A DNA stretch of 64,000 nt from Pseudobutyrivibrio sp. OR37 (GTDB taxonomy: Bacteria > Bacillota > Clostridia > Lachnospirales > Lachnospiraceae), in the NCBI RefSeq assembly GCF_900113655.1, contig NZ_FOQF01000005.1:62001-126000 (forward strand). Reading direction: 5' to 3'. This document shows, in pieces, positions 1 to 13,474 of this stretch (the stretch's first letter is position 1; each line of letters starts with the position of its first letter). A model generated the notes under the pieces. That model did not search any database, was not told where the DNA came from, and saw nothing but the letters and a program-made list of their open reading frames with translations. The position numbers were made by a program, and so were the translations under genes.

Positions 1-3000
1 GATAGTAGCCCTGTCCTCTTTTGAATCTGTCTATGAGCAGGCACCACTGGTCCTTACCTTCTTCATTCTTCTCATTTAACTTGAAGATGATAGGTCCTTC
101 TACTGCATCAACCTTTCCAGGCAATGTCTTATCTAAGAACTTAGAACCTATATCTGTAAACTGACCAAGTACCTTGTCAGCTACATCAATCTTGATTGAG
201 CCGTTTGACTCATTCTTTGTGTAACGATAGTACTTGCCATCGTTACCCTTAATCATTGTTGAATCGATTACCTTGATGATTCTTCCACTGGCATCTCTTC
301 CGCCCTCGTGATAAAGCTGTGGTTCTGTGAAATGAACAAAGTCACGAGTCTTTGCGTAGTAGATTGCGTGGTTCTCATAATCCTGAGTAATCTTTTCATT
401 CTCATCTACCTCTAATCTTGTTGCAGACCAATAAACAACATATTCACCTGTCACATCATCATAAACAAATTCTGGTGCCCATGTGCAGCCAGCGTTTTCA
501 GGAGCTATTTCTGCAAGCCATGGCTTTGACCAGTGAACCAAATCATTTGATTCCCAAACAACTATGCTGTGGCTACCGTTGCTTCCTGCCTGACCCCAGT
601 CTCTGTTATGGTAGATGCTAAGGTCTGTAGAAATCATGTAGAATTTGTCTCCCTCAGGAGTACGAGCAATGTACATATCTCTAAGACCACTTTCACCGAT
701 TGTGCTTTCGATGATTGGATTGTTGTTGTTCAAATCCTCCCAGTTGAATCCATCCTTTGAAACTGAGAAGTAAACCTGCTCATCTGTAGCTGCCCCTTCA
801 GTTCCTGTAAAGTGAACGAATAAGTAACCTACATAATCCTCCACTTTCTTTGGTGCTGCCACTACTGTGCAGTTGTATTCCTTTGTAACAGATGTATCAC
901 CCTTACTAAAGGTTGCTGTAAGTGTTACATCAGTATTACCCGACTGTCTTGTAACTACACCTGCTGGTGTGCTGTCGTAACCAGCATTAGTCTTTGTCTT
1001 TGTGCTGATAATCTTTTCGTCAGATGATGTCCATGAAACTGATACTCCATTTACTTCTGATGGAAGTGAAATGCTGCCTTTAATCTTTTTCATATTAGGA
1101 ATCACATAGCTGTCTGCTACATATTCCACATCACTGATTTCCTGCAATCTGGCTGTCTTACCTGCTGAATAAAGTCTTGCAACATCGTCAGCCTTATATG
1201 CTCTTTCGTATACCTTAACATTGTCAAAATATCCTCTGAAATAATCATCACCTGTGTAGAATGACTTACCCAAATATCCAAGTAAATCCTCACCTAAATC
1301 AGAAACCTTAACACCTGTGTTTTTGTTTACACCGATAAGCTTGCCGTCTCTGTAAAGTGACATCTTGTTGCCATCCATTACGATGGTGATGTTAATCCAG
1401 GTTCTTGATGTGTTTGGATATTTAGCTGATGTCTCAACCTTCTTTTCGCCGCTACTGCTTTCTGCTGTAATAGCAAGCTTTTCAGCTGTTGGCATTGCCT
1501 TGTAGAATAAATACTTTGTATTATCCTGACCAAAGGTGAAGGTGAAGTAATTTCCTGTACGTGTAACCTCATTTACATCAAAGGAAATTGTCATCTTGTC
1601 TCTGCCATCAAAGAATCCCTTAGGAAACTCAAGGTATGCATTGTGGCCACCTACATTTGAACTACCATCAAGATAAAGTACCTTACCGTAATCCTTGTCC
1701 TCCACAATCTGTCCTTTTACAGCCTTACCGTCGTTACCATTTCCTGATGCATCCTTTACAACATTCTTTTTGATTTCTTCATTGAAGTTGTATTCAAGGA
1801 CTGGTTCAGCCTTAATCTGCTCACCCTGAACAGTAACCTTAACCTGGAATTTAGCTCCTTCCTTTAAGAACTCCTCATCTGTCATATTGAAGATTGGAAG
1901 TCCGTCTCTATCAAAGAACACTGCCTTCACATAAGCATTTCTGCATGGGTCATAAAGTGGATCACCTGTATGTGTAGCATGAGTCTTTGATTCTCTTGCA
2001 TGATATACAATAACAAGATTTCCATTCTTATCTGTTGTAAATGAGTTGTGTCCTGGACCAGAAACCTCATCATCAAAATCTGAGCTTGTAAGGATTGGAT
2101 AAGGAAGCTTGGTCCAATTATTTACATCAAGTAAATCTGCCTTTTCATCTGCATACATAAGACCTACGCAATATTCTGAGCCTGTTCCTGATGCAGAGAA
2201 GGTCATGTAAACCTTGCCATCCTTGTGGAATACTCCAGGACCTTCGTTTACTTTGTATCTAACAAGCTCCCAAGCAAATTCTGGCTTTGTAATTAGCTTT
2301 GCCTTGCTTGTAAGCTGTGTAGGATTTTTAGGATCAATTGTTGCGATAAACAGGTAGCTAAGTCCGTCTGGATTCTGAGTATTTTTTGTTTCATCAGCCC
2401 AAACGAGATAGTGCTTTCCGCCTGCCTCAAAATATGTCATATCAAGTGACATTGCATTTAAAATGTTGTCACCGCTAACGGGCTTCACAAGTTCTGGCTT
2501 TCCCCACTTATTAGCATCAAGCATGCTTTCCTTCTTAGGATTTCCCTCGAACTTAATCATGAAAGGTCTGATATTAAATGAGGTACCATTTCCTGTGTTG
2601 AGACCAGCTGTTGCAACTAAATACCAGCTATCCCCGATTTTGTGCATCTCTGGTGCCCAGATAAATCTGCCTAGCTCCTTTGATGTGTTCTCATCCCAAA
2701 CCGCAACTTCTTCTGCTGAGCTTAAATCCTGAATTCGCTTTGCACGTCTAAGAATGATTCTGTCGTAACCATCCTTATCACCGTTTCCTACCATAGGATA
2801 AGATGCTGTGAAATAGTAGTAACCATCATCCTCGTTGTACACTACATAAGGGTCTGCTCTTTCAGGAACAAGTGGGTCTGCAGCATCAGTGAAGTTTGCT
2901 GAGCCTCCCAGAACACCTTCTAGTGTGTAGGTTCCTGGAAGCTCCAAATCTACATTTTCAATACTCTCCTCAGTAAACCTGATGTCGTAATACTTTTCCT

Positions 3001-4948
3001 CATTATTAGAATACTTTGCCATCAAACTATATTTTAATGAATCGGTGTAAAGACGCTCTCTAAACTCTTCTTCTGTAGTGTTTGCAGGTATTACAATCTC
3101 TGGCACAGAATACTTTATAATCTCAGTATTATATGGATTAGTATACTTTTCATATAGCCATCCTGCTTCACTATCTGTAAGGCCAAGCTTGTTTGCATTT
3201 ACAGCATCTGATGGAGCCGTCTTTACTTCATCAAATGTATATCCTTCGATAAGTACAGCCTTATCAAACTTCTCCATATCCTTTGATGTAACAAGATATG
3301 TTCCATCACCAGTCTTAAGATAAATCTCGTAGCGTTCATCAGTAAGGTCGTATAAAGCATCGATGTCTTTTACATTAGAAACAGCTGAACCAGTAGCTAC
3401 AGATTTTTCATTCTTATAATTAATTAAATCATCTGTTTCATATACAAGCAGATTACCTGATGTGCCATCTGCTGCAACCATGTAAAAGCTCTTACCATCA
3501 GCATTTCTAAGTAATACCGGACTCTGATATGCTTTGCTGCCTAACGCTGTGTACATAACAGGCTGATTCTTATGAAGTGGCTTGAATTCTCCATCCACAT
3601 TCATGGCAATCTTCATACCACCGTCCTGTCCAACAGCAGGTTTGTTGCTAACGTAGGTCTCAATATCATAGCCCTGCTGAAGTACTACAACCTTGAACTC
3701 TTTATCCTCTCCGTCAATAGTAGCTGTAAGAATTACTTCCTTGTTCTTCTTTCCTCTTGTAACCTTTCCGTCGTTTGTGATGACATCCTCATTATTTGAT
3801 TTCCATGATATGCTCTTACCATCATATTCCTTTGGAAGATTAATATCATCTGTCACGTAACCCAAGTTGAGAGAAAAATCAACTTCAGTAGCCTTACCTA
3901 CCTTCTTATCAAGAAAGGCCTTATAAAGATCAGCCACGTCACTGTCTGTAAGCTTACCCTGATAAATCTTGTAGTTATCAAGATATGCTCTACAGTATTC
4001 TCCTGAACCCCAGTTGGCTTTTCCAATATAAGTAATAGGATTAGCTCCTAGGATATCCTCAAGCTTGTTGTCTGAGCTAAAGCTTGATTTCTTTTCACCA
4101 TCTACATAAACTACTGTTTCATCCTGAGAATAAACAACATCTATGTGGGTCCATGTGTTAATTGCAATAGGTGTGTTTGTGGTTCCGTTTTCTCTACCGT
4201 TTTTAAAATGCTCGATAGTTAGCTTTGAATTGATGTTAGCTGCACCAAGGTAATATTCTGGACTTGACTGTGGGTTCTCATTTGGGGCTGAGTAGAATAA
4301 CCAGTCTGTTCCAGTTCTTCCAATATTTGCATCAAATGAAATAGAAACAGATTTTAATCCTGCAAGCAGGCTGTCTCCATTTTCCTTGGTAACATTAAGG
4401 AATTGCTTTTTACCATCAGAAAGCGAAATAGCCTTTCCACTTTCACCAAAGCTATCTACAACAGAATAAGTACCTGTTGCCTTAGCACCGCCGCCTGTAA
4501 TGGCTGCATTATCTTCGAGGTTTTCAAAGTCAAAATCTGCAATCAGCTTTAACTTATCTTCATCCTCTTCTTTCTCTTCTTTTTCCTTTAACAGTTTTTC
4601 TTCTTCAAGTAGCTCTTTCTCATCAAGCTCAGCATTTTCATCTTCTTCAGCTTCTTCATCAACATCCTTTTGGGCTTCATTATCGTCTGTTGATTCGTCT
4701 GCTACATCTTCTGCTGAGGAATCAGAGGCAGGAACTTCTTTGGCATCCTCAGAAGGTTGGCTTGTTTCTTCCTCAGATGCTTGTGATTCTTCTTGTGATT
4801 TTTCTTCAGAAGATTCTTCTTGTTTGGTCTCTCCAGCTTCAGTTGCCTGCACTAAAGAAAGACCTGAGCCAGGTGTAAACCCTGACCAGGCCATTGAAAG
4901 TGCAAGAGCTGTAGCTAAGAGACGCTTAAAGTTCTCTTTTTGCATCAT
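1..4948 (-). CDS. Secreted multidomain GH43 glycosidase with two GH43 and two LamG domains (3' end cut by window)
   Basis: At least 1649 codons, open to the window edge. The start at 4948 is preceded by GGGGG six bases upstream; ATG at 4945 is an alternative. Order: signal peptide (about 1-35), long Glu/Asp/Ser linker (36-130), LamG-type domain (about 136-339), atrophied Ig-like domain (340-420), a GH43-like stretch (420-560), GH43 catalytic domain (about 680-990; Asp in RADPYV near 699, acid Glu in NEGPG near 899, WAPEM motif), second LamG (1046-1253), Ig-like (1254-1370), second GH43 domain (from 1371; RDMYIA, WAPEF and VEGPI motifs). By family it cleaves arabinose- or xylose-containing plant polysaccharides outside the cell. 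Exact substrate cannot be read from sequence. The C-terminus, and so any membrane anchor, is outside the window. Confidence 0.9.
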   Translation of the reverse strand, partial: MMQKENFKRLLATALALSMAWSGFTPGSGLSLVQATEAGETKQEESSEEKSQEESQASEEETSQPSEDAKEVPASDSSAEDVADESTDDNEAQKDVDEEAEEDENAELDEKELLEEEKLLKEKEEKEEDEDKLKLIADFDFENLEDNAAITGGGAKATGTYSVVDSFGESGKAISLSDGKKQFLNVTKENGDSLLAGLKSVSISFDANIGRTGTDWLFYSAPNENPQSSPEYYLGAANINSKLTIEHFKNGRENGTTNTPIAINTWTHIDVVYSQDETVVYVDGEKKSSFSSDNKLEDILGANPITYIGKANWGSGEYCRAYLDNYKIYQGKLTDSDVADLYKAFLDKKVGKATEVDFSLNLGYVTDDINLPKEYDGKSISWKSNNEDVITNDGKVTRGKKNKEVILTATIDGEDKEFKVVVLQQGYDIETYVSNKPAVGQDGGMKIAMNVDGEFKPLHKNQPVMYTALGSKAYQSPVLLRNADGKSFYMVAADGTSGNLLVYETDDLINYKNEKSVATGSAVSNVKDIDALYDLTDERYEIYLKTGDGTYLVTSKDMEKFDKAVLIEGYTFDEVKTAPSDAVNANKLGLTDSEAGWLYEKYTNPYNTEIIKYSVPEIVIPANTTEEEFRERLYTDSLKYSLMAKYSNNEEKYYDIRFTEESIENVDLELPGTYTLEGVLGGSANFTDAADPLVPERADPYVVYNEDDGYYYFTASYPMVGNGDKDGYDRIILRRAKRIQDLSSAEEVAVWDENTSKELGRFIWAPEMHKIGDSWYLVATAGLNTGNGTSFNIRPFMIKFEGNPKKESMLDANKWGKPELVKPVSGDNILNAMSLDMTYFEAGGKHYLVWADETKNTQNPDGLSYLFIATIDPKNPTQLTSKAKLITKPEFAWELVRYKVNEGPGVFHKDGKVYMTFSASGTGSEYCVGLMYADEKADLLDVNNWTKLPYPILTSSDFDDEVSGPGHNSFTTDKNGNLVIVYHARESKTHATHTGDPLYDPCRNAYVKAVFFDRDGLPIFNMTDEEFLKEGAKFQVKVTVQGEQIKAEPVLEYNFNEEIKKNVVKDASGNGNDGKAVKGQIVEDKDYGKVLYLDGSSNVGGHNAYLEFPKGFFDGRDKMTISFDVNEVTRTGNYFTFTFGQDNTKYLFYKAMPTAEKLAITAESSSGEKKVETSAKYPNTSRTWINITIVMDGNKMSLYRDGKLIGVNKNTGVKVSDLGEDLLGYLGKSFYTGDDYFRGYFDNVKVYERAYKADDVARLYSAGKTARLQEISDVEYVADSYVIPNMKKIKGSISLPSEVNGVSVSWTSSDEKIISTKTKTNAGYDSTPAGVVTRQSGNTDVTLTATFSKGDTSVTKEYNCTVVAAPKKVEDYVGYLFVHFTGTEGAATDEQVYFSVSKDGFNWEDLNNNNPIIESTIGESGLRDMYIARTPEGDKFYMISTDLSIYHNRDWGQAGSNGSHSIVVWESNDLVHWSKPWLAEIAPENAGCTWAPEFVYDDVTGEYVVYWSATRLEVDENEKITQDYENHAIYYAKTRDFVHFTEPQLYHEGGRDASGRIIKVIDSTMIKGNDGKYYRYTKNESNGSIKIDVADKVLGQFTDIGSKFLDKTLPGKVDAVEGPIIFKLNEKNEEGKDQWCLLIDRFKRGQGYY

Positions 4949-5038
4949 CACTATTCCCCCAATTAAAAATTAAGACAAAAGTCCTTTGTTACACCATAGA
5001 AAAAGATCCCCCAATCCCTTAATCTATGGCAGTTCGTG

Positions 5039-5067: not shown

Positions 5068-5109
5068 GTAAATAGAAATTTCTTCACACTTTTATAAAAA
5101 TAATCGTAA

Positions 5110-5143
5110 AAAATCCAACCTCTATACTAAAAGGTTGGATTTT
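5110..5143 (-). terminator. Rho-independent terminator of the RiPP operon
   Basis: A perfect 11-bp stem (AAAATCCAACC with GGTTGGATTTT) and a 12-nt loop, followed on the minus strand by a T run. It lies 37 nt after the stop of the second precursor gene. Confidence 0.85.
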
Positions 5144-5180
5144 GTACGTGTACATAGATCCTAAAGGACTTACAACTGTT

Positions 5181-5570
5181 CTAATCTGGATCATCTGGAT
5201 AGCAACCGTCCTCTTTTCCGCCATTTCCTCCTATAACACATAAACAAGCATTAACATAGGAATATGAATATCCAGGTTTAGCTCTTCCGCCTCCTCCGAC
5301 AACACAAGCACATGCATAATGATGACTATCTTCTAATCCTCCTCCAACTGCAGGGCATACACATCTTTTTCCCCCTGTGGTAGCAGCAAGCTCATCCATC
5401 GACATTTCTGTCAATTCATCTTCTTGCTTTAGATCATCAGCCTCTATAGTAATTCCACGTTCTAACGCCATACTAATAATAGTTTCAGCGTCAGCATTTT
5501 GTAATTTTTCGATAGTATCGTTACCTTCGTTTGAAACAACTTCCATGAATTTATTAACACTCTCTTTCAT
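5181..5570 (-). CDS. RiPP precursor B: Nif11-type leader and a core with three CxC/glycine modules
   Basis: 129 aa from ATG 5570, which has AAAGGAG nine bases upstream and overlaps the stop of the radical SAM gene (TAATG). An upstream in-frame start at 5618 would lie inside the maturase gene and has no comparable ribosome site. Leader (1-67) is acidic and helical, with the Nif11 pattern of an E/D-rich end and double glycine (66-67). The core (68-129) has cysteines at 70/72, 87/89, 109/111 and 123. Each of the first three pairs is CxC, then two or three hydrophobic/Pro residues, then a glycine run (CVCPAVGGG, CACVVGGGG, CLCVIGGNGG). The likely fate is modification by the neighbouring radical SAM enzyme, leader removal after GG by the C39 transporter, and export. 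The mature structure is unknown. Confidence 0.85.
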   Translation of the reverse strand: MKESVNKFMEVVSNEGNDTIEKLQNADAETIISMALERGITIEADDLKQEDELTEMSMDELAATTGGKRCVCPAVGGGLEDSHHYACACVVGGGGRAKPGYSYSYVNACLCVIGGNGGKEDGCYPDDPD

Positions 5571-7018
5571 TAGATATCGCTCCTTTCCACTTTTAAATAT
5601 TCTTCCACCCCGTAACAAACTGCTTCTGGTCTTAGTTTTGATATCTTATCTATAATTTTTGTGAGCCAACCGTCTCTATAAATCTTGCAAGTCATTTCAT
5701 CTACAGCCAGAACATCATCACGATGAAACATCATGGCGCTTGCTCGGCATCCACCTAGACATAATGATTTATACTTACAATCAATGCACTTTTCATTTCG
5801 AGCTATTATCTCTTCTACTCTGGTATCAATCAATTTCATGTAAGAAGAATCAACCAAACAGTCTCTAAGGCCCATTTCCTGAACAAGAGGGTATTGATTT
5901 TGGAATTCATCTGACATGCTTGCCATGCCCATGCAAGTTTCCGCTCTGCCTTCGGCTGATATGTACATTGTATTTCTCGCGTGTACACACATACTTGCCC
6001 TCATTGGATTCTCGTAGATATGAACAGCTGGTAATTCATAAAAATCAGGTTCACCACCGTCTGCATAAAAAAATCCACCTAAATGTACAAGTATATTCGG
6101 TAAATCCTGGTAGAAAGAGTCAATATACTCGTAATAAACATTGAATACCTCATCTTCTGTCATTGACAGGGCGTTACCATAGTTTCCATCTTTCCATGCA
6201 CCAGTATCTGATATTGGATTTACTTTTAGACTGCGACACCCCATCTGTGTCAGATCGTTTATGCTTTCACGTAAAGAGCCTGCATTATCTTTCCATAAAC
6301 ACATTTCAGCACCAGTTGGAAAACCACGTCTTTGGCACAACAAAAATGCTTTTCTCACAGCCTGCTCAGCCCCTGGAATACCTCTCAACCAATCATGATG
6401 TCCTGTTCCATCAAAACTCATATTGATTTCAGGGTGAATACCTCGTTTTTCCAACTCATCGAGAAATTTCTCATTTACAAGAAAACCATTTGAATAGATT
6501 TGAGTAATGAGTATTTCTCTTTCAAGTAATCCATCCACAATGTCCCAAAAGTCTGAACGTACAAGGGCTTCACCACCTGTCAAAGTGCATCTAAGTACCC
6601 CACAATTCCCCATATCATTAACAATTTTCAATATTTGCTCATGGGTCAGTTCGCCATATTTAGCATCTGGGGCTGACATATAGCAGTGTTTGCATTTACA
6701 GTTGCATTTGCCAGTTATCGACCAATGCACTGTGTTCATATAGCGATTATTGTAAAAAATATATTTTTGTTTTTCTTTGAGCTCTGAGCCTTTTTCACAC
6801 TCTGATACGACACCCTCTTTTACCAATTGTTCTACAAGTTTACGTTGATCATCAGTAATAATAGGAATAGAAAAATCTATTTTTCCATTACACATTTCAA
6901 GAGTATCTAATATAAATTTGTTAACAAACTGAGCTCGTCCATATTTTCTATCTATAATTGCGTATGGTAATTTTTCCCAGCCACAAAGCCTATATCGTTC
7001 ATTCAGCAGATAATACAT
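5570..7018 (-). CDS. Radical SAM/SPASM peptide maturase (Nif11-associated type)
   Basis: 482 aa. The N-terminal ~85 residues look like a PqqD-like peptide-recognition winged helix. The radical SAM core has the CX3CX2C cluster motif (C105, C109, C112; an extra C107 gives CNCKCKHC), a GGE motif (148-150) and later strands typical of the fold. The C-terminal SPASM region supplies candidate ligands for auxiliary Fe-S clusters: C344, C362, C411, C414, C420, C424 and C444. Such enzymes form radical-derived crosslinks or epimers in RiPP precursors. Position between two Cys-rich precursors (16 nt after precursor A, TAATG overlap with precursor B) makes both likely substrates. Ribosome site AAGGAGAG precedes ATG 7018. 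The bond formed cannot be read from sequence. Confidence 0.9.
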   Translation of the reverse strand: MYYLLNERYRLCGWEKLPYAIIDRKYGRAQFVNKFILDTLEMCNGKIDFSIPIITDDQRKLVEQLVKEGVVSECEKGSELKEKQKYIFYNNRYMNTVHWSITGKCNCKCKHCYMSAPDAKYGELTHEQILKIVNDMGNCGVLRCTLTGGEALVRSDFWDIVDGLLEREILITQIYSNGFLVNEKFLDELEKRGIHPEINMSFDGTGHHDWLRGIPGAEQAVRKAFLLCQRRGFPTGAEMCLWKDNAGSLRESINDLTQMGCRSLKVNPISDTGAWKDGNYGNALSMTEDEVFNVYYEYIDSFYQDLPNILVHLGGFFYADGGEPDFYELPAVHIYENPMRASMCVHARNTMYISAEGRAETCMGMASMSDEFQNQYPLVQEMGLRDCLVDSSYMKLIDTRVEEIIARNEKCIDCKYKSLCLGGCRASAMMFHRDDVLAVDEMTCKIYRDGWLTKIIDKISKLRPEAVCYGVEEYLKVERSDI

Positions 7019-7034
7019 CGCTAACTCTCCTTAT

Positions 7035-7418
7035 TTATGATGCACCGCCTCCGCCTACTCCAGGGCACCTACAAAAACCTGCTAGCTTTTTATGTTTTTT
7101 ATCATAATAGAATTGTCCACCTCCTCCAATAACACATCCACAGCCTCCATAAAAGCCATCACCTGATGCACCTGCACCTGCACCTAAACAAGCGCATGCA
7201 GTTGCGCCACCAGATACAGCTTCTAATTCATTTTCATCAAGCTCTGAGGTCTCTAAGTTAAAGTCTTCTTTGACAAGATTGATACCATAACTTTTGGCAA
7301 TCTCAATGCTGGCCGTGATTACACCTTCTTTATCGTCTTCATTTAGTGACTTTAATTTCTTTTGGGCTTCCTCATCTTCACCTAGCATTTCCAGATACTT
7401 ATTCATTTCCTCTCTCAT
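7035..7418 (-). CDS. RiPP precursor A: Nif11-type leader and a core with three CxC/glycine modules
   Basis: 127 aa, start 7418 behind AAAAGGAGG with 7-nt spacing. The leader (1-71) matches the Nif11-like leader pattern: helical repeats, the EDF and ELDENELEAVSGG segments, double glycine at 70-71. The core (72-127) has exactly six cysteines as three CxC pairs: C75/C77, C93/C95, C116/C118. They are followed by LGAGAGA, VIGGGG and PGVGGGG. Spacing between modules is 18 and 23 residues, almost the 17 and 22 of precursor B. Aromatic residues (FY, F) sit just before the second and third modules. It lies downstream of both exporters and directly upstream of the maturase. Confidence 0.87.
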   Translation of the reverse strand: MREEMNKYLEMLGEDEEAQKKLKSLNEDDKEGVITASIEIAKSYGINLVKEDFNLETSELDENELEAVSGGATACACLGAGAGASGDGFYGGCGCVIGGGGQFYYDKKHKKLAGFCRCPGVGGGGAS

Positions 7419-7496
7419 AGTAAAACCTCCTTTTTGCTGCCTTGTACTATAATTCTAAATAAATAATAATATAATTATTATCACAAAAATGTCACA

Positions 7497-9680
7497 CTAC
7501 TGTCCGTCTAATTGCTGTCGTTTTACAAGTTCTGCAAAAAACTGCTGCTTGGCTATTAGCTCCTCATAAGTACCAGATTCAACTATTTGCCCATTATTAA
7601 TCACAATTATTTTATTACAATTCTTAATGGTTGATAATCTATGAGCAATTACGATTCTTGTACATCCCATTTTATCCAAAGCGTCGGAAACCTTTTTTTG
7701 TGTTATGTTGTCCAAAGCACTAGTAGCTTCATCAAAAAATAGTATTTTGGGTCTTGTGGCTATTGCTCTGGCAATCATAATCCTCTGTCTTTGACCTCCC
7801 GAGATACCTCCCTGACCTTCTGTTATCATTGTCTTCATTTTCATTGGCATCTTTTTAATATCATCTGCAATGCCTGCTATTTCTGCAGCTTGCCAGGCTT
7901 CATCTTCTGTCAAATCTGGATTTGTAATTGCAATATTTGAATAAATATCTCCTTGGAATAGAGCCGAATCCTGCATAACTGTCCCAATTTTCCTTCTTAA
8001 TGATGGCAAATCCATGGTGTCAATATTTTGATTGTCGTAATAAATTGCACCCATCTGAGGATGTTCTAGTCCAAGCAGCAATCTTATTAATGTTGACTTG
8101 CCACATCCAGTTTTTCCTACAATAGCAATATAATCCCCAGGCTTTACTTTTAAAGATAAGTTCTTAAACACATATTGTGAATCATCATTATATTTGAAAC
8201 TTAAATTCTCCACTGTTATCATTCCGGAAACGTTATTTACAAGTTGTTTTTCAGCCTCCATCTCAGGCTCAGTTTTTAAAAATGGGGTGGCCATTTCGAG
8301 AATAGGCTTTATTTGAGCAAATGAATCAGTCACTGAAGAAACCGAGTCAAAAGCCCCCATAAGCATTCCGAAGGATGCCATAAATGCATAGTAATAAGAC
8401 TGATTTAGATTACTTTTCACCGCAATGTAATATATAACAATAGTTGAAAATAAATTTATTCCAGCAAAAAAGACGGCGTTTGCCTTTATAAATAAAGGCG
8501 GATTATACTGATATTTAGCTTCCTCCGCATATGCCATAAGCCATTTAGAATAAGCTCTCTTCTCTGATCCTGACAGCTTTAGTTTTTTTATACCTGAAAT
8601 AAACTGATATGAAAGTCCGGCAGTTTTCGCTTGTCTCTTCAATAACTCTCTATCAACTTTCATCTGTATCATACTAGTGGAAACTAAAAAAAATAGTGTG
8701 ATTAGTACAATAAAAATTGCTGGTACCGTAAGTGATTTTGCAAAACTAAATATCTGGAATATATACAAAAGTGATACAAAGGCAGTAAGGCTGGAGCCCA
8801 TTATTATGTCTACAAGTGTGTTACATAATTGGTTAACTGCCAATGAACGATTACATAGCTCGCCAGGACTATACTTTCTGAAAAATCCAGACGGTAAGCT
8901 CATAATCCTCATCATCATTGCGGACTCAACATTAACGGATATTTTTGTCTTAATACGGCTTTGCAGTAATGTTTTTATCCCTTCGAATAATTGATAGGAT
9001 ACAGTAATACAAATCATACATATTACTAAACTAACAATGTATGATGATTCTTTTATTTCGAGAATAGGCCCAACCAATATCCTTGCAAATTCTGGCAAAA
9101 ACATACTTGTAGCGGTTGCCATAAAACTGCATAGTACTATATATACCAAATCATTTAAATAGAGACTTTGCCTCATAAAGACTAATAAATCAATGATGTT
9201 CATCTTTTTATTAGGCAGTGGTCTATATAAATGATATGCTTCTACCTCAAATAGTCCCGCATTATTATTGTTAACCCATTCTCGTTTTTTCGTAAAAGGG
9301 TTTTCAAACCTATATGCGATGTTACCTGGTATTAAAACCACTGGTACATTAAATTCCTTAGTAAAAGCAAGTATTGGGCCAAAGGCATCTTTATACCATC
9401 CTTCAGTGAGCTTTATTTTTCTTTTCATTATTCCTCTTGATTTAAGAATGTAATCAAACTCACTATCTACATCAATCATTTCCTTTGACACATCAATTGG
9501 TCTAAGATGATAAAATCTCATTATTTCATCAATATTACCCTTGATTACCTGTCTTTTATCCTGTATTTTCTCGGCCTGTTCCCCACCTAAAATTGACGAG
9601 ATTACTTTTTTGTATGCATCTTCTAATAATTGCTGATCAGCCGCCTGCCTTTCCTCAATTTGGTTTTTAAACCACCCCAT
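7497..9680 (-). CDS. ABC exporter, second (peptidase-less) subunit of an NHLM-type peptide export system
   Basis: 727 aa. An N-terminal cytoplasmic region (1-160) without protease residues, a six-helix ABC transporter membrane domain (about 165-455), then an ATPase domain with Walker A GKTGCGKST, signature ISGGQRQR and Walker B FFDEATSALD. This architecture matches the second ABC protein of the NHLM bacteriocin export systems that accompany Nif11 and nitrile-hydratase leader peptides. The gene starts 11 nt after the C39 transporter, so the two probably form a heterodimer. A 78-nt, very AT-rich gap separates it from precursor A and could hold an internal promoter. Confidence 0.88.
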   Translation of the reverse strand: MGWFKNQIEERQAADQQLLEDAYKKVISSILGGEQAEKIQDKRQVIKGNIDEIMRFYHLRPIDVSKEMIDVDSEFDYILKSRGIMKRKIKLTEGWYKDAFGPILAFTKEFNVPVVLIPGNIAYRFENPFTKKREWVNNNNAGLFEVEAYHLYRPLPNKKMNIIDLLVFMRQSLYLNDLVYIVLCSFMATATSMFLPEFARILVGPILEIKESSYIVSLVICMICITVSYQLFEGIKTLLQSRIKTKISVNVESAMMMRIMSLPSGFFRKYSPGELCNRSLAVNQLCNTLVDIIMGSSLTAFVSLLYIFQIFSFAKSLTVPAIFIVLITLFFLVSTSMIQMKVDRELLKRQAKTAGLSYQFISGIKKLKLSGSEKRAYSKWLMAYAEEAKYQYNPPLFIKANAVFFAGINLFSTIVIYYIAVKSNLNQSYYYAFMASFGMLMGAFDSVSSVTDSFAQIKPILEMATPFLKTEPEMEAEKQLVNNVSGMITVENLSFKYNDDSQYVFKNLSLKVKPGDYIAIVGKTGCGKSTLIRLLLGLEHPQMGAIYYDNQNIDTMDLPSLRRKIGTVMQDSALFQGDIYSNIAITNPDLTEDEAWQAAEIAGIADDIKKMPMKMKTMITEGQGGISGGQRQRIMIARAIATRPKILFFDEATSALDNITQKKVSDALDKMGCTRIVIAHRLSTIKNCNKIIVINNGQIVESGTYEELIAKQQFFAELVKRQQLDGQ

Positions 9681-9691
9681 TTACATGCCCC

Positions 9692-11869
9692 CTATTCATT
9701 CCTTATAAGTTCCATGTATAAACCATTTAGTTTTATCAGTTCCTCATGAGTTCCTCGCTCAGCAATCATACCTTTATCCAGTACAACGATTTCATCACAA
9801 TCTCTGATTGTAGAAAGACGATGTGCGATTACGATACAGGTAATTCCTCTATTTCGTATTGCCTCCACAACCTTGTGCTCAGTCAACGCATCTAAGGCTG
9901 ATGTTGCTTCGTCAAGAATGATAATTGATGGATCCTGGGCTAGAACACGGGCAATTTCTAGCCTTTGCTTTTGACCTCCGGAAAGATTTTTACCACCATA
10001 CTCTAACCTATGTTTATAATGATCTGGAAGAGCCATTATTTCATCATGCAATGCGGCATCTCTAGCTGCTAAAATCATTTCAAAATCCTTAATTGACTCA
10101 TCCCACATTTTAATGTTGTTTTCTATTGAATCCTCAAAAAGGGTAATGTCCTGATCTACTACGGCAATTGAGCCTACCATGGTTTCACGGGGATATTCAT
10201 TTCTTGTTTTTCCATCAAACAATATTTCACCTGACCATATTTTATATAACCCCGCAATAAGACTGGACATTGTAGATTTTCCGCAACCTGATGCACCTAC
10301 AATTGCTATACTTTGCCCTGCCTTAATCGAAAGAGAAAAATCCTTTATAAACGGCTCATCTAGCCTGGCATATCCAAAAGAAATATTTTTTATCTCGATA
10401 TTCCCTGACAATTTGTTTAGATTATTGTCATTTCTGACTTCGCTATTATCATTTTCGTCACTCGGATAGGAAATGACATCTTCTACTCTCTCAATGTTTG
10501 TTCGCATTTCCTGCATTGTTTTGCCTGCCTGAATAAGTTGTTCCGCTGGATTAATAAATGAACTTAAAAATCCCTGAAACATAACTACAGCACCAATCGA
10601 AAATTTGCCCTCAATAGTCAGTAATACACCTAAAATAAGGACAATATAATTTGCCATGATATCAAGTACAGTTGGTATTAGACTTAAAAAAGTTGTGGTC
10701 TTTATTAATTTGACAGTTTGTTCATTTATAGAAGCCTGAATTCCAGCCCATTTTTGAAAAAATACCTCCTCAGAGCCACTTGCCTTTATTGTTTCAATAA
10801 GATTAATTCCTGTAACTGTAGCTCCTATCAGTTTTCCCGAATCTCGCATTAAAATTCGGGTAATATTAATTCTTTTGTCGGCAATTATTTTAGATATTGC
10901 TACATTTATAGCTACTGTTATAATTCCGATAGATGCCAACATTACGCTCTGCTTTACCATTAATACTAGATAGAAAATCATCATTACGGAATTTAATAAC
11001 AAAGGAGTAAAAGTTTCTATTATAGATGAAGAAATATTTGCACTAAGATTTGCCCTAGATTGAATGTCTCCAGCCAATCTTTGAGAAAAGAATTCCATTG
11101 GAAGTCTTAGAACCTTCCACATATAAGTTGTATTTCCAACAACAGCCATTTTTCCATCTATCTTTATGGAATAGATTGCATTAATCCACATAACAACCAA
11201 CTGAACGATAGAAAAAACAATCAACACACCCATAAATGGTTTTAACCATTCTGGATTTTCTCCAGTCAAAATTCTATCTATGAATATACGTGCTGTTACA
11301 GAATTGAAAATGCCAAATAAATATGCAATCGCTGTTGTGAGCATCAAAAAAAATGTGGCAACGCCTGTTCCCACAAGCCTTTTTCTTGCGTAATCAAGTG
11401 TACTTTTGGGTTTTCCTTCTGGAACAAAATCTTCTGATGGAGTCGGTATTATAACAACGCCACTAAATGATTTTTTAAACTCCTTCTCCGATAACCTTAC
11501 AGTCCCTCTTGCTGGATCGTTTATATAGGCCCACTTTCCTTTAAATCCGCAAAGTACAACAAAATGACAGAAATTCCAGTGTATTATACATGGAAAACTT
11601 GCCTGAGTTATTATGGCATTAGCGCTCATTCTATAAGCTTTTACGTTAAACCCATAATATTTTGCCGCATCAGCCATATTTTTAGCATTGGAACCATCTC
11701 GTGAAACTCCACAGTCCAAGCGTACCTGTTCTAATGGCACCCATTTCCCGTAATACGCCATAACCATAGCCAACGCAGCTGCACCACATTCAAGCATCTC
11801 CAACTGAATAATAACTGGAACTTTTGCTACACCTTTTGTAATTGGTTGTCTAATCTTTTTAATGTCCAT
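9692..11869 (-). CDS. ABC exporter with N-terminal C39 double-glycine peptidase (NHLM type)
   Basis: 725 aa. The C39 peptidase domain (1-140) shows the Cys in LECGAAALAM (C28), His in CHFVVL (H102) and Asp in INDPARG (D118), the expected catalytic triad. Six-helix membrane domain (about 165-455) and ATPase domain follow, with Walker A GASGCGKST, LSGGQKQR and LDEATSALD. C39 exporters cut leader peptides after a double glycine and export the core. Both precursors in this operon carry GG at the predicted leader end. The gene follows the HlyD-like gene by 1 nt, so translation is probably coupled. Confidence 0.92.
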   Translation of the reverse strand: MDIKKIRQPITKGVAKVPVIIQLEMLECGAAALAMVMAYYGKWVPLEQVRLDCGVSRDGSNAKNMADAAKYYGFNVKAYRMSANAIITQASFPCIIHWNFCHFVVLCGFKGKWAYINDPARGTVRLSEKEFKKSFSGVVIIPTPSEDFVPEGKPKSTLDYARKRLVGTGVATFFLMLTTAIAYLFGIFNSVTARIFIDRILTGENPEWLKPFMGVLIVFSIVQLVVMWINAIYSIKIDGKMAVVGNTTYMWKVLRLPMEFFSQRLAGDIQSRANLSANISSSIIETFTPLLLNSVMMIFYLVLMVKQSVMLASIGIITVAINVAISKIIADKRINITRILMRDSGKLIGATVTGINLIETIKASGSEEVFFQKWAGIQASINEQTVKLIKTTTFLSLIPTVLDIMANYIVLILGVLLTIEGKFSIGAVVMFQGFLSSFINPAEQLIQAGKTMQEMRTNIERVEDVISYPSDENDNSEVRNDNNLNKLSGNIEIKNISFGYARLDEPFIKDFSLSIKAGQSIAIVGASGCGKSTMSSLIAGLYKIWSGEILFDGKTRNEYPRETMVGSIAVVDQDITLFEDSIENNIKMWDESIKDFEMILAARDAALHDEIMALPDHYKHRLEYGGKNLSGGQKQRLEIARVLAQDPSIIILDEATSALDALTEHKVVEAIRNRGITCIVIAHRLSTIRDCDEIVVLDKGMIAERGTHEELIKLNGLYMELIRNE

Positions 11870-11870
11870 T

Positions 11871-12290
11871 TTACTCCTTGCTGCTAAACAAAAAATCTAC
11901 AGGACTTGTTTTGTCTTTTACAATAGTTCCGTCATACTTTCCATCAGGTAGAATAACCTCTGCCAATCCAACTGGTCTATCATATTCATCAAATTTCACT
12001 GAGGCTATAGTAAATTTATCGCTTGGAATTTCTACAGTATCACCTGCCTGTATACTGTAATCGCCCATTACTACTACACTAGCCAAATGATCCTCTACTA
12101 CGATTTTAGCTGCTACTGTTGTCTCAAGAGTTCCTGTGGAAGCCCATAAAAATAGGCCTATAAACATTAATGCTACTGAAAAGAGCACAATCCACACTCC
12201 TATGTTTGTTATTCTTAAATAGGATGAAAGCTCATCTGGAGTCGTAATTTTGCTGTTATTAGGATCTTCCTTACTATGATTTTTCCTCAT
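11871..12290 (-). CDS. Short HlyD-like secretion accessory protein (NHLM type, minimal form)
   Basis: 139 aa, far shorter than HlyD adaptors of Gram-negative systems. A cytoplasmic N-terminus ends in TPDELSSYLRITN, typical of NHLM secretion proteins. One membrane helix (about 30-52) and a small extracellular beta domain of about 85 residues follow. The coiled-coil hairpin and lipoyl halves of full HlyD are missing, which fits a cell without an outer membrane. It is the first gene of the RiPP operon; its ribosome site is weak (GGGT only). Confidence 0.78.
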   Translation of the reverse strand: MRKNHSKEDPNNSKITTPDELSSYLRITNIGVWIVLFSVALMFIGLFLWASTGTLETTVAAKIVVEDHLASVVVMGDYSIQAGDTVEIPSDKFTIASVKFDEYDRPVGLAEVILPDGKYDGTIVKDKTSPVDFLFSSKE

Positions 12291-12370: not shown

Positions 12371-12412
12371 AAAAAAGGAGCAAACCCTCACTCACTTTGA
12401 GGTTGCTCCTTT
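12371..12412. terminator. Terminator between the S66 peptidase gene and the RiPP operon
   Basis: Stem AAAGGAGCAA/TTGCTCCTTT with a second short stem above it. It is flanked by A and T runs so it can work in both directions. It follows the S66 gene by about 12 nt and so isolates the RiPP operon from the genes before it. Confidence 0.8.
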
Positions 12413-12424
12413 TATCTTAATAAA

Positions 12425-13474
12425 TTATTTACTAAAACTTCCCACATATGAAAGTGAAAGATTTCCACTCTCTACAGTAACATCCACCATTGCACCAGAA
12501 ATAATCGGCATGGCTGGTGGAAGATGTCCCACATCTGCATCCATAACAATTGGCACATTGTATTTGCCAAGGATTCCTGTTACTGCATTGTATTGATCAA
12601 GCCTCATCAGCTCCTGCTTATATGCTGCAAGAGGTCGGCCTATGATAAAGCCCTTTGCATATTTAAACCAGCCTGCTCTATCAAGATTCCACAGAGCACG
12701 TCTGATAGACATTACATTAAGGTCGCAGGCCTCCAAAAACCAGATGATGCCATCCTCCTTATACTTTTCGTTGAATTCAGCTACATTATCATATTTTGTT
12801 CCCACCAGATTAGCCAGACAATCCAGGCAGCCGCCTGTTAATCTTCCGCTAAATTCTGGAAGGCGATTCATTTCGCTTTCACCCATGAAAAGCCTTAGCT
12901 CTTTTGTCTCTGTAAGATTATAGGCTGCATAAGGATGCTCCTCATCCTTTAAAGACTCCAGCTCAAACTTATCATAGCCCGATACCTTATCAAGCTTTCC
13001 TGTTAAAGCCTTTATTGCATCCTCAAGTGCTGGATGCAATTCATGCATTCCAAAAGCACCTACGCATGGCCCGTAAATGGAAGCTGTGTCGCAGATTGTA
13101 TTTAGCAGGAATGTAAAATTGGTATTATCAGAATAACCCATATACCACTTTGGCTCTGCCTTTTTTATAGCTTCAAAATCTACATAATCAAGGGTTTCAC
13201 ACATGAGTTCTCCACCACCGCAGGAAATCAAAACATCATTATCCCCACTGCAGTAATACTCTGTAAGCTCCTTGCCACAGTTTTCTGGAGTGGAGCTGAT
13301 GCCGATACCATCATCCTTTCGGCAGTTTGGGCCTTCTGCAATCTTATAGCCCATTTTCTCAAAACGCTTTATAGCTGCGTCAAGGCAGCTTTTGTATGGC
13401 TCAAAGGTACAGCCAAAGGAAGGAGCTACCAAGCCGATAACTCCTTCCTCTTTTAAATACTCTGGATATTTCAT
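12425..13474 (-). CDS. LD-carboxypeptidase family protein (peptidase S66, MccF-like)
   Basis: 349 aa, full length for the family. The Ser-Glu-His triad is visible: Ser115 in the GYSDNT nucleophile elbow, Glu248 in WFLEACD and His317 in DVGHLPP. S66 enzymes either trim the terminal D-Ala from murein tetrapeptides in the cytoplasm (LdcA) or cleave peptidyl-nucleotide antibiotics (MccF). No signal peptide is present, so it acts inside. It lies just upstream of the RiPP operon but has its own terminator, and its substrate class cannot be decided from sequence. Confidence 0.88.
   Translation of the reverse strand: MKYPEYLKEEGVIGLVAPSFGCTFEPYKSCLDAAIKRFEKMGYKIAEGPNCRKDDGIGISSTPENCGKELTEYYCSGDNDVLISCGGGELMCETLDYVDFEAIKKAEPKWYMGYSDNTNFTFLLNTICDTASIYGPCVGAFGMHELHPALEDAIKALTGKLDKVSGYDKFELESLKDEEHPYAAYNLTETKELRLFMGESEMNRLPEFSGRLTGGCLDCLANLVGTKYDNVAEFNEKYKEDGIIWFLEACDLNVMSIRRALWNLDRAGWFKYAKGFIIGRPLAAYKQELMRLDQYNAVTGILGKYNVPIVMDADVGHLPPAMPIISGAMVDVTVESGNLSLSYVGSFSK

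Follow-up and report, generated by a model that had tools for sequence, protein, structure and literature searches.

A Nif11-led radical SAM operon of Pseudobutyrivibrio with tandem CxCxxxGxG cores suggestive of nested cysteine-to-glycine bonds

In the classical nested sactipeptides, such as thurincin H and subtilosin A, each peptide forms one hairpin, the acceptors are mixed, and the numbers of the bonded partners have a constant sum. The core of ruminococcin C contains a CVC motif and long loops. Glycine can serve as the acceptor of such a sulfur-to-alpha-carbon bond (sactionine): streptosactin has a natural Cys31-Gly34 sactionine (PMC8172795), and RumMC2 has formed a Gly61-Cys41 bridge in an engineered peptide (PMC8188230). 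A 2014 paper already remarked on radical S-adenosylmethionine (SAM) genes in the NHLP/Nif11 clusters of anaerobes (PMC4289311). We consider here an operon of Pseudobutyrivibrio sp. OR37, a ruminant gut bacterium, which encodes a radical SAM/SPASM enzyme and two precursors of ribosomally synthesised and post-translationally modified peptides (RiPPs). It lies in the window, that is, the whole stretch of 64,000 nucleotides that was analysed (contig NZ_FOQF01000005.1, positions 62,001 to 126,000), the numbering of which is used for all its features.

The operon consists of six minus-strand open reading frames (ORFs), running from 12290 to 5181 in the order HlyD-like protein, C39-ABC exporter, second ABC exporter (ABC2), precursor A, radical SAM enzyme and precursor B. 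The reading that we favour, and that we consider moderately probable, is that it makes two exported RiPPs and that the enzyme installs two nested sactionines in each core module, giving triple-hairpin peptides.

The core modules and their register

Precursor A (127 residues; 7035..7418, minus strand) and precursor B (129 residues; 5181..5570, minus strand) each have a Nif11-like leader, ending in ...LEAVSGG in A and in ...LAATTGG in B, and a core with three modules. These are CACLGAGAG (A1, 7170..7196), CGCVIGGGG (A2, 7116..7142) and CRCPGVGGG (A3, 7047..7073) in A, and CVCPAVGGG (B1, 5337..5363), CACVVGGGG (B2, 5286..5312) and CLCVIGGNG (B3, 5220..5246) in B, all on the minus strand; natural variants of A2 (CGCVIGGAG) and B3 (CLCIIGGSG) are found in locus L050. 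An earlier note on this DNA had summarised the cores as CxC plus GGGG. The CxC part stands, while GGGG gives way to a stricter rule, C0-x-C2-x-x-x-G6-x-G8, three times per core, both in the window precursors and in those beside homologous enzymes. Position 6 is Gly in 30/30 modules and position 8 in 29/30, with positions 5 and 7 being variable (Gly in 18/30 and 17/30, respectively).

The 30 modules are those of ten cores, from the window and the loci L027, L069, L071 and L076. The three near-identical Pseudobutyrivibrio copies of the operon were not counted as modules; L026, L054, L047, L068, L049 and L074, which have mixed or lone-Cys cores and not three CxC modules, were counted apart; and more distant relatives, with other cores or with no precursor passing the filter, were not counted. 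It is important to point out that the rule was spotted in nine modules (A, B and L027) and then checked on 21 others, located via the enzyme and not via the core, which belong to two precursors of L069, that of L071 and four of L076. In the last of these loci, the four CxCxxxGxG precursors stand in tandem after one enzyme (1551-4545 of that locus), as an array of core variants. Glycine occupies position 6 in 9/9 discovery and 21/21 check modules, and position 8 in 9/9 and 20/21. The corresponding numbers are 5/9 and 13/21 for position 5, 7/9 and 10/21 for position 7, and 3/9 and 0/21 for position 9. The modules of one L069 precursor, L069b (CTCTYFGAG, CTCIQSGVG and CWCVFSGSG), have Gly at places 6 and 8 only among places 5 to 8.

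The joint register was reached in 0/20,000 residue shuffles and 0/20,000 segment rotations of the cores, in each of the two sets. When positions 6 and 8 of the nine discovery modules were taken singly, the observed count was reached by 2 and 1 of 20,000 rotations, in which Gly runs are preserved. The possibility that the cores are merely Gly-rich is ruled out by the residue shuffles and by the rotations.

Across the cores of four Pseudobutyrivibrio genomes there are ten amino-acid-changing codons, none of which falls at positions 0, 2, 6 or 8; at these four places a single codon differs, synonymously. Three of the ten lie inside modules (GGGG to GGAG, GGNG to GGSG, and one V to I). Since such avoidance is expected by chance about once in ten (an estimate, from 24 key places in 118 core residues), it gives the register weak support. 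In the window's own genome, a 26-base DNA pattern of the module has 36 matches, six of them within the genes of precursors A and B. Two of the other 30, chosen by eye, were read from the sequence as a P-loop protein and a lipoprotein-like secreted protein, neither of them a precursor, and a further match is out of frame inside the C39 exporter gene. A precursor profile search of the same genome returned only A and B, plus one insignificant match (0.5).

The best reading of these data is a triple-hairpin, glycine-acceptor, sactipeptide-like product with predicted sulfur-to-alpha-carbon bonds C2–G6 and C0–G8. Nested Cys–Gly bonds are suggested because the register is symmetric, 0+8 and 2+6 having the same sum, like the rungs of an antiparallel hairpin, and the bond would be to the alpha carbon because the constant partner, Gly, has no beta carbon and offers only C-alpha. 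Namely, the enzyme would bind the Nif11-like leader, abstract a C-alpha hydrogen from chosen core glycines, and join each of these to a Cys sulfur. Every module would then have an inner C2-G6 bond, enclosing a three-residue turn, and an outer C0-G8 bond, such that each core would become three small double-rung hairpins in a row, which makes 12 bonds for the two precursors together. Cleavage after GG by the C39 exporter would follow, and the NHLM proteins would export the product, which is perhaps antibacterial against other Gram-positive gut bacteria. That the two form an exported antibacterial pair is a default guess from the exporter type, and signalling is also possible. Where the earlier note had allowed for either crosslinks or epimers, the former seem the likelier: Gly, the residue found at the constant acceptor-like places, is not epimerisable.

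Codon 123 of precursor B (5202-5204, minus strand) encodes a seventh Cys (DGCYPDD) in the window and Arg in the other three Pseudobutyrivibrio genomes. This residue is not part of any module, and the sactionine model predicts that it remains unbonded.

The maturase and competing explanations

The enzyme (482 residues; 5570..7018, minus strand) matches Radical_SAM of Pfam (5.1e-18) and contains C105xxxC109xxC112 as well as C344-x12-G357-x4-C362...C411x2C414x5C420x3C424...C444. It has, in other words, the CX3CX2C motif and SPASM cysteines expected of a sactipeptide maturase, the latter as the full seven-Cys motif defined in PMC6231123. The three cluster cysteines and the seven SPASM cysteines are present in 27/27 aligned rows and G357 in 26/27, which supports the earlier assignment as a radical SAM/SPASM enzyme. 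This count and the enzyme tree discussed below comprise 27 of 30 distinct enzymes (L037 and L039, shorter than 400 residues, and L038, by choice, were left out) and do not use the three near-identical Pseudobutyrivibrio copies.

In a profile search of solved structures, the best match of the enzyme is the sactisynthase SkfB (7.6e-14, the next being 2e-7). With this match to the radical SAM core, a register that fits nested sulfur-to-alpha-carbon hairpins, and the Cys–Gly sactionine being known, the earlier statement that the cores match no class that can be named is not supported, and its "not sactipeptide-like" is probably wrong. The putative donor cysteines C0 and C2 are accompanied by Gly at both candidate acceptor places, 6 and 8, as in a hairpin register for sactipeptides, in 29/30 modules; this is a register and not a set of bonds, and membership of the sactipeptide class is putative. 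The kinship of the enzyme supports the sactionine reading weakly, and the main argument is the substrate rule.

There are a number of points that weigh against the reading with two nested bonds per module. The SkfB match covers the radical SAM core only. No curated maturase model of NCBIfam passed its cut-off among the best 25 of 63 matches, and the non-RiPP family NirJ (86.9 bits) and ScmE (83) outscore StsB (72.1, cut-off 625), the Nif11-class radical SAM maturase model that this database includes, TIGR04103 (72.1, cut-off 725), and AlbA (51, cut-off 850), every one of them with a score far short of its cut-off. The sub-cut-off scores for the sactisynthase models StsB and AlbA argue against close kinship, and not against sactionine chemistry. 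The N-terminal ca 95 residues of the enzyme form a conserved region, and profile searches with these 95 residues for a RiPP recognition element (RRE) gave no matching family or solved structure; an AlphaFold prediction for the enzyme, with the three near-identical copies, has a predicted local distance difference test score (pLDDT) of 41.7, too poor to judge the RRE. On the substrate side, the glycines could be conserved for the turn rather than for a bond, and the modules of one core, as well as the four precursors of L076, share ancestry and are not independent events. Finally, L070 has its enzyme among the CxC-type ones and no CxC precursor in 9 kb, with the contig ending 168 bases past the last small precursor-like ORF.

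Confidence is lower for the outer rung than for the inner one, because the window's nearest relatives in the enzyme tree, those with mixed cores, have five CxC modules of which four lack Gly at the outer place (Ala 2, Asn 2, Gly 1). In the same five modules, the place at +4 of the second Cys, i.e. the inner partner, is always Gly (5/5). One can therefore think of a scenario in which only the inner C2-G6 sactionine is made, with C0 as a free thiol, a disulfide or a metal ligand and G8 serving the turn. The lone-Cys relatives, which have the inner partner alone, fit this scenario (the residue at +4 being Gly in 9/15, Asn in 4 and Ser in 2), as does one module of a triple-CxC precursor, L076c, with Gln at +8. 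However, G8 is kept in 29/30 CxC modules while position 7 varies freely, and we regard the restriction to one bond as unlikely.

We also considered that the CxC/GxG modules are metal-binding or structural and that the enzyme performs some other radical chemistry, such as crosslinking by a C-C or C-O bond, epimerisation at other residues, or Xaa-Tyr-Gly splicing as in spliceotides. Radical SAM/SPASM maturases catalyse many reactions, none of the curated maturase models mentioned above passes its cut-off, and the spliceotide target Xaa-Tyr-Gly (PMC11002830) occurs in precursor A, as FYG. This triplet is, however, present in only 2/10 cores (window A and L076d) and not in precursor B, and between offsets -12 and +15 the only near-constant residues apart from Cys are Gly 6 and Gly 8. 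A different chemistry is thus another doubtful option.

A ranthipeptide, in which, as in freyrasin or SCIFF peptides, the Cys thioethers lead to residues other than Gly and attach at their beta or gamma carbon, would go along with the Cys-rich cores (six module cysteines each) and the SPASM enzyme. However, at each offset from -12 to +15, Cys positions apart, one or more of the 30 modules have Gly (at -8 and -6 one module each, with 9/30 modules having no residue there), and a fixed beta- or gamma-carbon acceptor is therefore a misfit, while a bond at varying offsets is still compatible. There is no SCIFF model among the matches listed (complete for the precursors, best 25 of 63 for the enzyme), and no match named CteB among the solved-structure matches (E <=1, 19 sequences). 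We hence take this assignment to be very improbable. A lanthipeptide was rejected, as no LanB/LanC, LanM or LanKC is among the matches listed for the six operon proteins (best 25 in NCBIfam for the enzyme and the exporters). Equally improbable is a silent or decaying operon with unmodified peptides. Although the enzyme occurs in only 4/29 Pseudobutyrivibrio genomes searched, the window's own included, the window and three further genomes have all six frames intact, and the core amino-acid changes avoid the four key positions.

Leaders, export, flanking genes and distribution

The description of the locus in the earlier note as a RiPP operon with Nif11-like leaders is supported at the level of the family. 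The Nif11 leader model TIGR03798 gives 24.8 bits (1.9e-5) for precursor A and 22.5 bits for precursor B, both below the cut-off of 32.3, yet it matches 15/15 aligned family precursors at E <=0.01 (best 8.3e-14). Pfam Nif11 matches 11/15 of these; when A and B were compared with Pfam by themselves, A gave 0.028 and B no match. The leader GG is present in 15/15. The alignment (A4) comprises 15 of the 18 family precursors, with that of L071 and one each of L076 and L068 left out. Two further matches of precursor A are below threshold, one to TIGR04149, a model of radical SAM targets (17 bits, cut-off 25), and one to class II bacteriocins. The leader of the triple-CxC precursor at 9246-9530 of L071 is very short and retains little beyond the ELDAEELDAVSGG end; as it keeps little else, this leader end may be sufficient for recognition.

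Export by NHLM proteins with a C39 domain, as anticipated in the same note, is likewise supported. The C39-ABC exporter (9692..11869, minus strand) is above the TIGR03796 cut-off (869.6 vs 853.3 bits) and has a Pfam Peptidase_C39 match (9.7e-34), so that the NHLM exporter with leader peptidase expected for a Nif11-derived peptide (N11P) cluster is present. ABC2 (7497..9680, minus strand) is slightly under the cut-off of TIGR03797 (682.3 vs 709.4 bits), and C39 is absent from its 17 Pfam matches. The HlyD-N-like protein (11871..12290, minus strand) is a short membrane protein of 139 residues, which covers only positions 1-54 of the 421 of TIGR03794 (17.0 bits, cut-off 156.2); short forms of 74-169 residues also adjoin the NHLM genes of relatives.

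The six genes are flanked by two terminator-like stem-loops on the minus strand, as the earlier note had it. One, with a U tail, follows precursor B (5108..5143; −17.6 kcal/mol, z −5.6), and the other, with a U tract, separates the operon from the S66 peptidase gene upstream of it (12371..12413; −22.7 kcal/mol, z −5.4), z being the folding energy relative to shuffled sequence, than which both are far more stable. A simple terminator scan misses both. A promoter-like site upstream of precursor A (7466..7495, minus strand) has 10/12 consensus matches and is a consensus match only; in the region as a whole, 36 such sites are found vs a mean of 37.7 in shuffles, i.e. there is no excess. Coupled translation of the enzyme and precursor B is suggested, because the ATG of the latter shares one base with the stop codon of the former (TAATG).

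None of the six operon genes could be recognised as a dedicated immunity gene, and export itself may serve this purpose. Directly upstream, on the same strand and beyond the stem-loop, is an S66 LD-carboxypeptidase-like gene (12425-13474, minus strand). Some S66 peptidases (MccF) confer immunity to microcin C. Just downstream of the operon, a very large protein of at least 1650 residues is encoded (2-4951, minus strand), with a signal-peptide-like start and a Glu-rich N-terminal region, which runs off the left edge of the window; a Ser-rich plus-strand ORF (4500-4973) overlaps it in antisense.

The distribution of the enzyme is rare and patchy. It is 99-100% identical in three further Pseudobutyrivibrio records, two from deer reticulum and one from P. 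ruminis SIG311, and a scan of genome contigs gave only these three near-identical loci. More widely, relatives were found in 14/397 genomes of the family (E <=1e-40), 7/392 of the order (1e-60) and 2/391 of the class (1e-60), and by profile within the family in 13/337 (1e-90) and 7/351 (1e-120); these samples overlap and each includes the window's own genome. Viral contigs gave no relative, and plasmids none of the enzyme or of precursor B.

In the enzyme tree, the window belongs to a 10-row clade (support 92/93), and NHLM exporter genes are present in the fetched stretch of 6/9 other members (L027, L047, L068, L069, L070 and L071). They were not found in ca 20 kb of L026 and of L054, and for L076 the minus-strand ORFs of a 6-kb contig were covered. 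The window groups with L054, L026, L047 and L068 (100/100), all of which have mixed or lone-Cys cores, while triple-CxC cores are those of the window, L071 (placed beside the window's group with weak support, 80/56), L027, L069 and L076. The triple CxC is either ancestral and was then reduced, or arose more than once. L049 and L074, the enzymes of which are ca 29% identical, retain C-x3-G/N units. A core type different from CxCxxxGxG, zinc-ribbon-like with CxxC, occurs in Nif11-like precursors with related radical SAM enzymes, at 10445-11862 of L032, 9334-9810 of L048 and 10182-10604 of L069.

In the three CxCxC modules, found in L071 and L076, the place at +10 is Gly, Gly and Tyr, compared to Gly in 6/27 of the other modules. 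This is a hint of three-rung hairpins, but the cases are too few to claim a third rung.

Comparison with known systems

The proposal can be generalised to a distinct sactipeptide sub-class, occurring in Pseudobutyrivibrio and other members of the family, and at this level the chances are about even. These would be Nif11-led "glycine ladder" peptides with tandem C-x-C-x3-G-x-G and up to six nested Cys-to-Gly bonds per peptide, installed by one radical SAM/SPASM enzyme according to a readable code (Cys n to Gly n+4; Cys n-2 to Gly n+6). The number of rungs would follow the number of cysteines: one in the lone-Cys relatives, two in CxC, and perhaps three in the CxCxC of L071 and L076. If this is true, an orphan Nif11/radical SAM cluster obtains an exact, testable bond map, sactionine chemistry is extended to acceptors that are all glycine and in tandem, and multi-hairpin peptides can be mined by a sequence rule, namely three CxCxxxGxG units following a Nif11-like leader. 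If the peptides are antibacterial, there would also be a bearing on the competition among ruminant gut bacteria.

We know of no tandem CxCxxxGxG modules in the classical nested sactipeptides. What thurincin H and subtilosin A have in common with the structure proposed here is the nested hairpin topology (PMC8326336, PMC8172795). A 2026 survey of rumen isolates reports 4 sactipeptide clusters and more than 200 ranthipeptides by rule, and the terms "Nif11" and "radical SAM" do not occur in its main text (PMC13289728). Among the matches listed from the open full-text literature, subscription papers being outside, no paper recognisable by title and abstract deals with Nif11-led CxCxxxGxG peptides. 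Already in print are thus Nif11/NHLM clusters with radical SAM genes, the Cys–Gly sactionine, and a two-hairpin sactipeptide, while the Nif11-led tandem all-glycine form was not found within that scope.

As to leader and export, the N11P/NHLM clusters described in 2010 share the TIGR03798-like GG leader and the TIGR03796 and TIGR03797 exporters, but carry cyclodehydratases or LanM (PMC2887384). In the spliceotides (PlpX), a radical SAM enzyme similarly acts on precursors with NHLP or Nif11-like leaders, but tyramine is excised at Xaa-Tyr-Gly (PMC11002830), the triplet that is rare in the present cores. Freyrasin (PapB) and other ranthipeptides also have several Cys thioether rings per peptide (PMC8326336, PMC11002830); in freyrasin the bonds are to the beta carbon of Asp, and Gly has no such carbon.

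Close parallels are also found in ruminococcin C and streptosactin. Ruminococcin C (RumMC1/2) likewise comes from a gut clostridial host, and four C-alpha thioethers shape its core into two hairpin domains (PMC8188230), with a similar SPASM Cys layout in its maturase (PMC8172795). It differs in that the natural acceptors are non-Gly, there are two hairpins, and the leader has 19 residues (PMC8188230). Streptosactin, of the GGG family of streptococcal radical SAM RiPPs (RaS-RiPPs; enzyme GggB), shares the radical SAM/SPASM maturase and the sulfur-to-alpha-carbon bond from Cys to a downstream Gly (PMC8172795, PMC13361665). It is a 14-mer with two unnested four-residue rings (Cys25-Ser28 and Cys31-Gly34), Rgg/SHP control and the protease GggC. 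The adjacent Rgg regulator with SHP, a trait of the streptococcal RaS-RiPPs, is not among the six operon genes here, beyond which only the S66 gene was profiled. Unlike streptosactin, the present operon combines a Nif11-like leader and NHLM export with predicted nested pairs, in tandem, from the cysteines to glycines at +4 and +8.

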